IMG/VR virus record: IMGVR_UViG_3300017917_004374
Coordinates: 1 to 21,928 of that record
Direction: 5' to 3' (one strand)
From: a virus
Length of the DNA stretch: 21,928 nucleotides
Below, piece by piece: positions 5,502-9,685 of this stretch (within the stretch, counting starts at the first letter, position 1; every line of letters starts with the position of its first letter). The position numbers and the translations under genes were made by a program. The notes under the pieces are model-generated. The model was not told the DNA's origin, searched no databases, and saw only the letters and a list, made by a program, of their open reading frames with translations.

Positions 5502-5507
5502 AGACAG

Positions 5508-5515
5508 TATTTAGC
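5508..5515 (-). promoter_or_regulatory. Weak late-promoter-like motif before the portal gene
   Basis: The minus strand reads GCTAAATA (6 of 8 to TATAAATA), in the short gap between the tail gene and the portal gene, 6 bases before the ATG. Spacing is as tight as at 3705-3712, so a promoter role is doubtful. Confidence 0.25.
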
Positions 5516-5520
5516 GTCGG

Positions 5521-7716
5521 TTACTGCTGATACTTTAGTATTCGTTCGTTGACATTGAGCTGAGACTTGCTTACACTGACCAGCTCGTCCACTCTTTCAA
5601 TCAATTTGATCACAGCACCTTCGCTGGCACCAGAATTCATATTAGTGGAACCTGTAGACGATGGTCTAATTGACAATTCTTCCGTGCCATGCATCATCAA
5701 ATTGGGTCTATACCCACTCATGGGTCCAGAAAGCGTTCCTCTAAATCCAGCTGCACCGCTGATTTCGGCATGAATATGACCTCCAGTAGCACGTCTGCTG
5801 GGGTTGGCATATTCATCTCTGACATTTTTGACATTGGGAAAACCTTGTAACAAAGCTGCAATTTGTGCGGCTTTTGACGGATCATTTAAAACAAAATCCA
5901 AAGCAGTGCCTTTGGGATGTGCACTGCCCGGATCTCTTCTATAAGTGTCGTTAAATGCACTGAAATATTTCAAGTCGGCGCCCAGTTTTTCTTGAATTGT
6001 TCTTGCCAACTGAATCAAATTGGGATGCACATATCCGCCTGCATATGCTTCATTGCTTTTGATTCTCAGTCCACTGAAATCCAATACTGTAGGTGCGGCT
6101 GCGCTGGGTGCACCAGGAGCCGGTGCTGCACCACCAGGGGCTGGAGCCGACGGTGCCGGCGGGCGAGGAGGTGCCTGGGGCGCAGTTGGAGTAGGTGCAC
6201 TGGGGGCACTGGGGGCACTAGGGGCTGCAGGTCCGGTAGCAGCTCTACCACCAGCAGCAGCTGGGCCTTGTCGAGATAATCTTTCGAACACACTGGTTAG
6301 ACCCGATGCCGCTGCATTCAAATCATTGAATTTTTCCACAGTGACATCCAGTGTTTGTGCTATGTTCAGCTGTTTTCTGCGAGTAGCTACTTGTCGTTCT
6401 AGTTCGCCTTTGTCAAACTCAGCCATGAGTTGTTGATCTCTGACCATTTCTTCAAGAGTTTTTCCTCTTTGAGCAGCAAAGGCCTCCATGGCAGCCATGC
6501 GTTCAGTGGTCATCAATGTGCCTTCGGCGCCGCCAACTTTGACACCTGGGCCCTGGCCAGTTAATGCAATCAATGGTGCAAAAGTCTGTTGATAATTTTT
6601 CAAACCGCGATTCAATTCCTGCGCACCTTGCACAAATGACATTTGACCGCGTGCCACCTGTTGCATGATTTCATAGGCACGAGGATCAGATTGCATGACC
6701 CGTTGTGCTTCTTCACTGCCTGGTAAACCTCGGCCTGCCATCAGGTGCTGTAGACCACGTATCAATTCTGGATCGTTGAACATGCCAAAGAAACTTTCCA
6801 GAGCAGTAACATCGTAACCCATGCTTCTGGCTTCTGTGGCCATGAATGCAGCATAGCGTTCGTCTTCGACCAAGGCTTTGCGTCGTGCTTCTTCTTCCTC
6901 TCTGGTTCGGCCAGTGAGTCGGGCCATTTTGTCCATTTCCAACGCAAACTTGGCACCTTCTACAGCCAGTTCATTGGCAGTTTTGGTCTGTACTCGACCC
7001 AGTCGGGTCTGCAGATTGAGATAAGAAGCTGTGGATTCAGCCAAACTGGCCGAAGTAAATCCCAGTTTTTCCAGGGAATAGCCCAGATCACTTTTGTAAA
7101 TAGCTCCCGAAATTGCTGCCAAATTCTGTGCACCATCCTGTGCGTTGGCACCAAACATGGTTAAATCTTTGGCGTTTTTTTTGATTACTGCTGTAAATTG
7201 ATCCAGTTCAGCTACAGTGAATCCTGCACGTTGCAGACTTTCATTCAGTCGTTCTAGGCCGCCGGCACCCGCCGCACCCATGTCACTGAGATTTTGATAG
7301 GCTTTGTATAAATTATCGCTTTGTTCAGCAGTGAGCTTTTGTACAGAACTGAACATTTTCGCTATAAAAGCGCCAGCATTCAGTATAATTTTGGTAGTAA
7401 CACTGAGTGCTCGCCCCATGGGCGTGAACAGGGTAAAAATACCAATGGCCACCTGCAAACTATCTGCTATCTTGTCTACACCATCGGCCATTACTTTCAG
7501 ACCGCGTTGACCTTTGTAGAGATCTGCTGCTGTACTGAATGCTGCTTCGCCTAGGCCTTCTAACCCAGCTTGCACTGCCTTGCTGGTACTAACAAGCTTT
7601 CTGTTTTGACCAGTTGTTGTGTTGGTATTGTTTATGGCTGCTGATTCCATTTCAGCCAAAGCTTGGTTCATTTGATTAATTTGCTGTCTGAACTGCTCGA
7701 TTTCTTGTGGATCCAT
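5521..7716 (-). CDS. Tape-measure-like tail protein with C-terminal M15-type zinc peptidase domain
   Basis: The protein has 731 residues. An N-terminal helical region (1-75) is followed by a hydrophobic stretch (about 87-122, with IGIFTLFTP and IILNAGAFIA). A long helical middle (130-480) has GFTVAELDQFTAVIKKNAKD-like sequence as in tape measures, then comes an Ala/Pro-rich linker (about 490-545). The C-terminal domain (about 555-690) carries SAHPKGTALDF (His600, Asp607) and GGHIHAEI (His647, His649), the HxxGxAxD plus HxH signature of M15/VanY-like murein peptidases. The likely role is to fix tail length and help cut peptidoglycan during DNA entry. T4 gp29 is 590 residues and lacks such a peptidase. 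The gp26/gp51-like neighbours on the other strand fit a tail-hub setting. It could instead be a tail-associated lysin. Confidence 0.7.
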   Translation of the reverse strand: MDPQEIEQFRQQINQMNQALAEMESAAINNTNTTTGQNRKLVSTSKAVQAGLEGLGEAAFSTAADLYKGQRGLKVMADGVDKIADSLQVAIGIFTLFTPMGRALSVTTKIILNAGAFIAKMFSSVQKLTAEQSDNLYKAYQNLSDMGAAGAGGLERLNESLQRAGFTVAELDQFTAVIKKNAKDLTMFGANAQDGAQNLAAISGAIYKSDLGYSLEKLGFTSASLAESTASYLNLQTRLGRVQTKTANELAVEGAKFALEMDKMARLTGRTREEEEARRKALVEDERYAAFMATEARSMGYDVTALESFFGMFNDPELIRGLQHLMAGRGLPGSEEAQRVMQSDPRAYEIMQQVARGQMSFVQGAQELNRGLKNYQQTFAPLIALTGQGPGVKVGGAEGTLMTTERMAAMEAFAAQRGKTLEEMVRDQQLMAEFDKGELERQVATRRKQLNIAQTLDVTVEKFNDLNAAASGLTSVFERLSRQGPAAAGGRAATGPAAPSAPSAPSAPTPTAPQAPPRPPAPSAPAPGGAAPAPGAPSAAAPTVLDFSGLRIKSNEAYAGGYVHPNLIQLARTIQEKLGADLKYFSAFNDTYRRDPGSAHPKGTALDFVLNDPSKAAQIAALLQGFPNVKNVRDEYANPSRRATGGHIHAEISGAAGFRGTLSGPMSGYRPNLMMHGTEELSIRPSSTGSTNMNSGASEGAVIKLIERVDELVSVSKSQLNVNERILKYQQ

Positions 7717-7756: not shown

Positions 7757-8593
7757 ATGACCAATCCGTTGAGTAATTACTTTAGACAGCCCGCAATCTA
7801 CATCAGGCTTCCCAGCGGCGGGAAATTTTACCCAGAACACACAGTGGTGGTTCCACCCAACGGCGAATTGCCTGTGTTGCCCATGACTGCCATTGACGAA
7901 ATTACCTATCGCACACCCGATGCCTTGTTCAACGGCACTGCTGTGGTCAATGTAATACAGAGCTGTGTGCCTGGCATCAAAGATGCTTGGGTAGTGCCGG
8001 CCTGTGATTTAGACACCATTTTGGTGGCCATACGAATTGCCACATATGGGCACGAAATGGAAGTCAACTGCACCTGCCCAAAATGCAAGCACGAAGATCA
8101 ATACACCACTGATCTGCGCAGCAGTCTAGATCTGTTGAAGCCTGGCGAGTACGAAAAACCATTTGTGCACTCAGACATGGAAATCTATTTTAGACCCATG
8201 ACCTACAAGGTTCTGAATCAAAACAGTCAACTTCAATATGAAGAACAACGTGCATTGCAAAGCATTGCACAAGCATCAGAAGCTGCAACAGAAGCGCAGA
8301 GTCAGACCATTAGCTTGGTGTTGGCCAAGATCACTGATATGACTGTGAAAGCCCTGGCACAAAGCATTGCGGCCATACGCACACCCACCAGTATTGTGAC
8401 AGATCTACAGCAGATTGAAGAATTTTTGAAAAATACCGATCGACGACTGTTCAATCAAATTCGAGATCGTATCATTGCTCTAAAAAGTGCCGGCGAACTC
8501 AAGCCCCTCAAAGTCGAATGCACCAGTTGCAGTCATCAATACGAGCAGGGATTTACCATGGACATGAGCAGTTTTTTCGAATCCGCCTCTTGA
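7757..8593 (+). CDS. 26: Baseplate hub protein, gp26-like, with a four-cysteine zinc site
   Basis: The 278-residue product resembles proteins annotated gp26 (baseplate hub/assembly) in marine T4-like phages. It opens with NPLSNYFRQPAIYIRLPSGG, then MTAIDEITYRTPDALFNG (~43-60) and ILVAIRIATYG (~88-98). Cys107-x2-Cys110 (in CTCPKC) and Cys255-x2-Cys258 (in CTSC) should together bind one zinc, bracketing an all-helical segment. The frame is open back to 7715, but the ATG at 7757 follows GGAG by 5 bases and gives the family's usual N-terminus. It is divergent from the tail protein and overlaps the gp51-like gene. The T4 function is inferred from family resemblance; sequence similarity to T4 gp26 itself is weak in this group. 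Confidence 0.8.
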   Translation: MTNPLSNYFRQPAIYIRLPSGGKFYPEHTVVVPPNGELPVLPMTAIDEITYRTPDALFNGTAVVNVIQSCVPGIKDAWVVPACDLDTILVAIRIATYGHEMEVNCTCPKCKHEDQYTTDLRSSLDLLKPGEYEKPFVHSDMEIYFRPMTYKVLNQNSQLQYEEQRALQSIAQASEAATEAQSQTISLVLAKITDMTVKALAQSIAAIRTPTSIVTDLQQIEEFLKNTDRRLFNQIRDRIIALKSAGELKPLKVECTSCSHQYEQGFTMDMSSFFESAS

Positions 8594-8808
8594 TACTTAA
8601 TCCTGAAGAAATATCTGGTCTGGTTGATCAAATGGAAAAAGAAACCAATCAGATCCGTCAAGAGGCACTGAGAATTTCTTGGAGCATGAGAGGCGGCGTC
8701 AACTATGATCAAGCTCTGCAATTGAGTGTTACTGAACGCAATCTTGTTAACGAAATCATCAAAGAAAACTTTGAAACCACAAAGAAATCAGGATTGCCAT
8801 TCTTTTGA
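8590..8808 (+). CDS. 51: Baseplate hub assembly protein, gp51-like
   Basis: This is a 72-residue helical protein. The core ISWSMRGGVNYDQALQLSV and the ending ETTKKSGLPFF are characteristic of the short gp51-like proteins that follow gp26 in cyanophage-type T4 relatives; gp51 is an assembly helper for the baseplate hub in T4. The likely start is the TTG at 8590, whose last two bases are the first two of the gp26 stop TGA, giving an N-terminus (x-ILNPEEI) like its relatives. The first in-frame ATG after that is at 8632 and would remove the conserved first 14 residues. No ribosome site is visible, which fits translational coupling. Confidence 0.75.
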   Translation: MILNPEEISGLVDQMEKETNQIRQEALRISWSMRGGVNYDQALQLSVTERNLVNEIIKENFETTKKSGLPFF

Positions 8809-9250
8809 TTGATCAAAGATGTGCTACGCACATCTGTTGTTTTCGCTATCGCTCAACAACATTTTAAGTTTCAAAGAGCGAAGCGATTTAAGTATTCATC
8901 CAGATTCAATGGTCACACTTTGCCCGCACAGGGCAAAAGGTGCTTCATCCGAGTTGGCAAGTCACACAGCGTTGGGGTGTTTAGCAGAGGCGGTTGTCCG
9001 GTACCTCCATCCCCGTCTTATTACAACGGCGGTCAATGTAACATACGCTATCATATTACATCAACGTGCTGCTCCACAGCAGCGTCATTTTAGCTCTATA
9101 TTCTGTTCAAACAACCAAGCCGCGGCATTTGCGACCTTCATCCTGATGGGTAGTGGTTGAGTGCTCACTGGCAGCGGTGAGGCTTCGGCTCCCTGCGACC
9201 CTGGGTCCAGGTTTCTTCTGTTCGGCACACGATGTTGACCTGTGCGAGTC
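8809..9250. ncRNA. Gene-free structured region, candidate non-coding RNA
   Basis: About 440 bases lie between convergent genes (gp51-like on plus, GIY-YIG on minus). Open frames here translate to low-quality, Cys/Ser/His-rich sequence with no ribosome site, so I see no gene. Many hairpins are visible: 8817-8835 (8-bp stem), 8836-8860 (GTTGTT/AACAAC), 8919-8937 (TTTGCCC/GGGCAAA), 9037-9060 (TGTAACAT/ATATTACA, one mismatch), 9068-9083 (GCTGC/GCAGC), 9171-9196 (GCAG/CTGC enclosing a GC-TTCG-GC tip) and 9200-9211 (CCTG/CAGG). The C(UUCG)G tetraloop favours the plus strand. I found no group I intron core or tRNA. It could be a phage ncRNA, a long 3' region with paired terminators, or a packaging/recombination element. 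Confidence 0.5.
8817..8835 (+). terminator. Strong hairpin just after the gp51-like gene, possible terminator
   Basis: A perfect 8-bp stem AGATGTGC/GCACATCT with a 3-base TAC loop lies 8 bases after the stop codon and is followed by a broken T-rich run (GTTGTTTT). It could end the plus-strand gp26-gp51 transcript, but the U-run is interrupted by G. Confidence 0.4.
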
Positions 9251-9685
9251 TTAACTGCTGAGTTTGTTGATTATGTGGCTGCCGTGTACTCTGACTTGAA
9301 TGTGTCCGTTGTACCAGTCTTGAGATTCTAGCACTCTGCGTGAAAATTGTTCTCTTGCTTCGATGTAACTACACTCTGCTTTGCTTTTGCAATAATAAAG
9401 TATTTCTCTTATAAAGTTTTCTTTGCCAAGAAGTTCCACATCTCGAGTGAGTTCAGGTGAGCTACCGTAGTAGTCTCTCCAATCTGAATCCACCTTGCTG
9501 CGAATTTTCCGTTTCTTTTTGTTACCGTTTTTGAGTTTGACTGTGCGTTGAGTGGTTCGAGAAAATTTTGCTAGTTTTTTGCCTATGTATTTGCGATCGT
9601 TGGTGATGTTAGTAATAAGATAGACAAAGCCCACACAATCTTCCGGGAGAGTTTCCACTGGTTGATTTTGATAAAGCCATGTCAT
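9251..9685 (-). CDS. GIY-YIG family endonuclease (free-standing, homing type)
   Basis: The 144-residue protein consists of a single GIY-YIG nuclease domain. FVYLIT (20-25) and KYIG (32-35) are the two name-giving motifs; Glu109 in YIEAREQF fits the metal-binding Glu and Asn126 in DWYNGHI the conserved C-terminal Asn. A basic insert (LKNGNKKKRKIRSK, ~51-64) followed by DWRDYYGSS is typical of short phage GIY-YIG proteins found as stand-alone genes in T4-like genomes. There is no separate DNA-binding domain. It is the last gene of the minus-strand block, 38 bases after the radical SAM gene, with its own candidate late promoter. A role in homing is inferred from the family; a role in repair or in host DNA cleavage is also possible. 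Confidence 0.82.
   Translation of the reverse strand: MTWLYQNQPVETLPEDCVGFVYLITNITNDRKYIGKKLAKFSRTTQRTVKLKNGNKKKRKIRSKVDSDWRDYYGSSPELTRDVELLGKENFIREILYYCKSKAECSYIEAREQFSRRVLESQDWYNGHIQVRVHGSHIINKLSS

Follow-up and report, generated by a model that had tools for sequence, protein, structure and literature searches.

A structured RNA of about 435 nt with an RF01718 5' domain and twin heptamers follows a GIY-YIG nuclease gene in freshwater T4-like phages and has relatives in bacterial islands

HEARO and OMEGA RNAs are encoded beside a nuclease gene. Large phage RNAs include GOLLD, which combines a conserved 3' region with a variable 5' region, and ROOL; both form RNA-only oligomers (PMC12286853). 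The phage ICP1 produces an abundant noncoding RNA from a gap in its genome that lacks ORFs, and another noncoding RNA is encoded by the PLE satellite (PMC7567579). The Polynucleobacter-1 motif (Rfam RF01718) was described in 2010 in a paper whose main text names it once, in a table (Weinberg et al. 2010, PMC2864571).

The window analyzed here is the entire 21,928-nucleotide stretch of IMG/VR record IMGVR_UViG_3300017917_004374. Within it, positions 8809-9250 are the exact interval between the stop codons of two convergent genes: a gp51-like gene (8518-8808, plus strand), an ORF that matched nothing in Pfam or PHROGs and that we named by position only, and a SegE-like GIY-YIG nuclease gene (9251-9685, minus strand; PF19835, E 1e-33). 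PHROGs (phrog_447) and many phage records label the family of the latter 'NAD synthetase', which is likely a misannotation. The initial annotation had described the interval as a gene-free gap without a tRNA or a group I intron core, and our searches agree on each point. The gap's ends coincide with the two stop codons, and a protein-coding gap was rejected because the two plus-strand ORFs that cross it (94 and 113 aa) are interrupted by stops in most relatives. Neither ARAGORN nor Rfam identified a tRNA or tmRNA in the window or across 25 loci, and the Rfam group I intron models had no match in the region. Conserved coding through translational bypassing of the T4 gene 60 type was also rejected: the longest stop-free run in the sense frames had a median of 51 aa, versus 55 aa in shuffled sequences, and the bacterial island heptamers described below, which have no stop codon at the site matching the bypass element, count against bypassing.

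The interval is occupied by the gene for a structured RNA of about 435 nt, encoded on the minus strand from 9250 to approximately 8817, directly after the nuclease gene. A whole-window Rfam search returned a sole above-threshold match, RF01718, on the minus strand at 9250-9109, spanning the full model (positions 1-141; 89.8 bits, gathering threshold 37); no other family matched the region at E <= 1. The Rfam search that the initial annotation had proposed therefore did return a family, one that covers a third of the RNA. The end of the 141-nt model is not the end of the conserved RNA, as in nearly all relatives RF01718 is directly followed by a conserved 3' part (the 300 nt that come next in the window), and covarying structure runs to about 435 nt. 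This new 3' part of about 290 nt (8817-9108, minus strand) is absent from Rfam and was recognized by blastn and nhmmer comparison with other loci and by covariation. A 434-position profile match and our alignment A1 place the whole RNA at 8817-9250; we infer that its exact 5' end is at 9250, immediately after the nuclease stop codon, and its 3' end at a terminal hairpin. The RNA's identity and extent are well supported, and the longer extent bears on the boundary of the family, not on the membership of the 5' domain in RF01718.

Relatives occur both in freshwater T4-like phages and on some bacterial chromosomes. Searching with the SegE-like protein retrieved 80 viral loci; RF01718 was present in 40 of the 50 records searched first, and an iterated profile of 434 positions recovered the RNA in full at 62 of 81 phage loci. 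The 47 non-redundant complete copies have a mean identity of 62%.

Several loci depart from the common arrangement. In seven (L021, L061, L064, L075, L028, L036 and L037), other sequence replaces the RF01718 domain after the nuclease; in most of these the profile still detects the 3' part, and nothing else of the RNA, and in L075 it detects no part. These replacements suggest that 5' domains are exchangeable. A phage locus (L011, from 4433 onward) and a weak bacterial match (L319, near 8689) have in common a AAGGTTGGC-like 5' stretch unlike RF01718, possibly a further subtype found in both phages and bacteria. Six loci (L024, L026, L033, L044, L055 and L030) carry tandem AATTATAGT-like units inserted in one loop of the RNA. 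The 3' part was also found with gp51 and baseplate genes on a contig filed as a Bacteroidetes MAG (L155), which is probably a mis-binned phage contig.

Folding energies assigned the structure to one strand. The minus strand gave a z score of -2.76, with 0 of 100 shuffles as stable, versus -1.36 and 9 of 100 for the plus strand; only on the minus strand does structure clearly exceed chance. Folded alone, the 5' domain was no more stable than its shuffles (z +0.72), so that the evidence for this domain is covariation rather than energy. RNAalifold predicted 75 pairs, 54 of them with double changes, and the top columns of a mutual-information ranking, which was uncorrected for ancestry, were mostly Watson-Crick helices and suggested pseudoknots. 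In the structure drawn for the 3' part from alignment A1, 96.3% of cells were paired and 39 of 49 pairs showed changes on both sides. Double-change cells numbered 438, versus 117 (sd 10) after shuffling and at most 83 in slid versions of the structure, the latter comparison being partly circular as the structure was drawn from the same sequences.

Three pseudoknots emerge, two among the helices of the 3' part and a third in the 5' domain. The latter accompanies a 5' hairpin (9225-9250; 9245-9241 with 9229-9225), pairing 9250-9248 with 9239-9237 in co-varying columns. In the 3' part, a long covarying hairpin (9032-9065; helices 3-5) presents a loop, 9051-9046, that pairs with 8971-8966; the second pseudoknot (8993-9027; helix 6) joins 9027-9024 to 8996-8993, with 100% of cells paired. 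The RNA closes with hairpin AGATGTGCGTAGCACATCT (8817-8835; helix 12), with changes on both sides in 7 of 7 pairs, and this is likely the 3' end. A terminator scan listed its palindrome on the plus strand only, as a terminator-like site after gp51.

The initial annotation had proposed a plus-strand RNA transcribed after gp51. This is not supported: the minus strand is indicated by the Rfam match, by the significance of the structure and by synteny with the nuclease gene that lies upstream. The C(UUCG)G tetraloop noted on the plus strand is present (9183-9188), but it is unconserved in relatives (alignment A1) and lies on the strand opposite the RNA. The broader suggestion of a large phage noncoding RNA fared better: judged from sequence comparison, strong covariation across homologues and the absence of any conserved protein frame in relatives favor a large RNA.

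The gene order of the locus, gp46-nuclease-RNA-(convergent) gp51, was invariant in two differently retrieved sets, from a protein scan and a DNA-pattern scan of one common collection in which some contigs recur. The pattern scan identified 119 loci with the RNA. The nuclease gene lay upstream on the same strand in 108, with the RNA no more than about 60 nt from its end in 97 of these (90%). Nine of the remaining eleven loci begin within 41 bases of the RNA, one (L217) is short, and in one (L241, about 8800-9400) a PDDEXK_15 nuclease gene precedes the RNA in place of the GIY-YIG gene. Wherever a pattern locus showed gp51, it was convergent (83 of 83). Within the 40 nt preceding the start of the nuclease gene, 33 of 81 loci contain the motif ATAACTA, against 0.3 expected, an enrichment that is the basis of our reading it as a promoter; the window copy has no exact ATAACTA in these 40 nt and has TATAAATTA further upstream. 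Three RNA-containing queries found no blastn match in cultured phages.

In most loci the RNA begins at the stop codon of the nuclease gene or overlaps with it, and it ends in a terminator-like palindrome beside the convergent gene. Both features would fit a cis-acting 3' untranslated element, whose structure stabilizes, terminates or regulates the nuclease message without being a separate functional RNA. Polynucleobacter-1 also carries a 'y' in a table column that we read as cis-regulatory (Weinberg et al. 2010, PMC2864571). However, 435 nt with pseudoknots far exceed what a terminator needs, other genes intervene between nuclease and RNA in several loci, and in L241 the neighbor is a PDDEXK nuclease. 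Bacterial copies without a same-strand gene just upstream, described below, also argue against a cis element, as do the twin heptamers, which it does not predict. We consider it unlikely, though worth keeping in view.

The most surprising feature of the RNA is that two short loops change in step nearly always. In the window, GGATGAA occurs at 8950-8944, preceded by ACTC, and again at 8901-8895, preceded by ATCT (both minus strand), with a near-invariant GCCC/GGGC hairpin between them (8921-8935; helix 9). Using a pattern that held the GAT core constant, we found 167 RNAs matching both motifs; the two heptamers were identical in 165 of these (99%), over seven variants. Among RNAs that missed the pattern and were read directly, several were full-length with a concerted change at positions that the pattern had fixed, carrying GCATAAT twice or GAATGAT twice. 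The heptamers were identical in 124 of 125 phage RNAs, although on a tree for which both motifs had been masked the heptamer changed at least 32 times. In sign tests on supported branches, all independent pairs agreed (10 of 10 and 6 of 6). Unlike heptamers occurred in L005 and one other phage RNA, and in bacterial island loci L342, L346 and L347; most island copies follow the twin rule with other heptamers. A duplicated or mobile cassette was rejected as a source of the twins, as no third copy occurs at a constant place and the phage genes downstream of the RNA appear to be ordinary and varying.

Among bacteria, RF01718 exceeded threshold in 3 of 399 sampled Burkholderiales genomes, in 13 of 151 genomes within one Burkholderiales genus and in 0 of 274 genomes of a class-level sample. 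The name of the RNA family points to Polynucleobacter as the genus that bears these islands. Seventeen island copies align end to end, with their elements in the same order as in the phage RNA. An nhmmer search with the phage profile barely reaches the island 3' part, so homology there rests on architecture and the twin motifs. A divergent DUF6641-type gene adjoins the RNA in 18 loci, and a small tyrosine recombinase gene lies downstream in 14. The conserved island (L316, L317, L338-L349) comprises DUF6641, the RNA, variable genes, the small tyrosine recombinase and an AAA ATPase, with two copies in some genomes. Searches for DUF6641 in phages, plasmids and viral contigs had one distant plasmid as their sole match, and we found no literature on this domain. 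Upstream of the island RNAs is a common TAAATAA-type element, and no same-strand gene lies immediately before them; the element suggests that these copies have a promoter of their own. Elsewhere in the window, GCTAAATACT (5502-5546, minus strand) lies just ahead of the gp20-like start and is similar to the element that precedes the bacterial RNA copies; we take it to resemble T4 late promoters as well.

We therefore read the locus as encoding a minus-strand RNA of about 435 nt, whose 5' third is RF01718 and whose covarying 3' part contains two pseudoknots; we take it to be a putative trans-acting, twin-loop phage RNA, and give this reading a probability of roughly 60%. The RNA would be transcribed with the GIY-YIG nuclease message or processed from its 3' end, and the transcript would stop at the terminal hairpin. 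It may then act in trans during infection, with both identical heptamers (8950-8944 and 8901-8895) contacting one common partner, a proposal that we hold only tentatively and with low confidence. If the partner is common to both, a change in it would select the same change in both copies. One bacterial genome (G895) has two island loci 18 kb apart with different heptamers, so that the partner would belong to each element or to its target and would not be a fixed host RNA. We offer this hypothesis because it is testable rather than because it is established.

Searches for a partner covered several places. We found no complementary partner in cis within the RNA and no heptamer complement at a constant flank position, where some site occurred in 115 of 167 loci but was scattered. 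Three phage contigs of 91-131 kb showed no excess of heptamer complements, although with so few contigs and such short motifs a single or host target would escape, and one E. coli rRNA operon had no complement of the full motif. These results also bear on whether the RNA serves a DNA-acting enzyme as partner or guide (in phages the nuclease, in islands the small tyrosine recombinase), its heptamers corresponding to two DNA sites with a core in common. The adjacent phage gene is indeed a nuclease, GIY-YIG and once PDDEXK, the recombinase lies downstream of the RNA in 14 island loci, and a copied heptamer would suit two such sites. Yet covariation with the heptamer singles out no GIY-YIG residue, the flanks and the three contigs yielded no matching target, the phage and island enzymes differ, and SegE relatives in cultured phages (four loci inspected) occupy other gene contexts. 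We regard this guide role as improbable, and give an equally small chance to its extension, in which the twin loops would direct a DNA-cutting or rejoining enzyme to two places having one core sequence in common, the RNA being shared by lytic T4-like phages and by islands that may be their parasites. Slightly less probable still is that the heptamers contact each other, or matching sites in an RNA oligomer, by same-base pairing, with the RNA as a scaffold: the copies match position by position and GOLLD and ROOL provide the precedent for oligomers, but parallel same-base pairing over seven nucleotides would be very unusual and an oligomer is only hypothetical here.

If the extent holds, the RF01718 family, whose function has been unassigned since its description, would triple in length. 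It would also gain two settings, bacterial islands and a widespread group of freshwater T4-like phages that are uncultured. For the proposed trans-acting RNA, the twin heptamers, which must remain identical even as they both change, would be a sharp clue to function, and make it directly testable by compensatory mutation.

Comparison with described RNAs locates this element among several systems without equating it to any one. Like HEARO and OMEGA RNAs, it is encoded beside a nuclease gene; the nuclease family is a different one, Rfam gives no match to these RNAs, and a guide role here is hypothetical. With GOLLD and ROOL it shares being a large, pseudoknotted phage noncoding RNA without known function, but it is smaller, does not match them in Rfam and has no tRNA in the window or in the 25 loci. 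Its 5' domain matches RF01718 at full length in the window and in both phage and bacterial loci, whereas the conserved structure extends about 290 nt beyond the 141-nt model. As in ICP1 and PLE, there is one RNA in an ORF-less phage gap and another in a different kind of element. The two RNAs of that system are not described as related, whereas here the RF01718 domain is common to phage and island RNAs, and the islands are candidate satellites.
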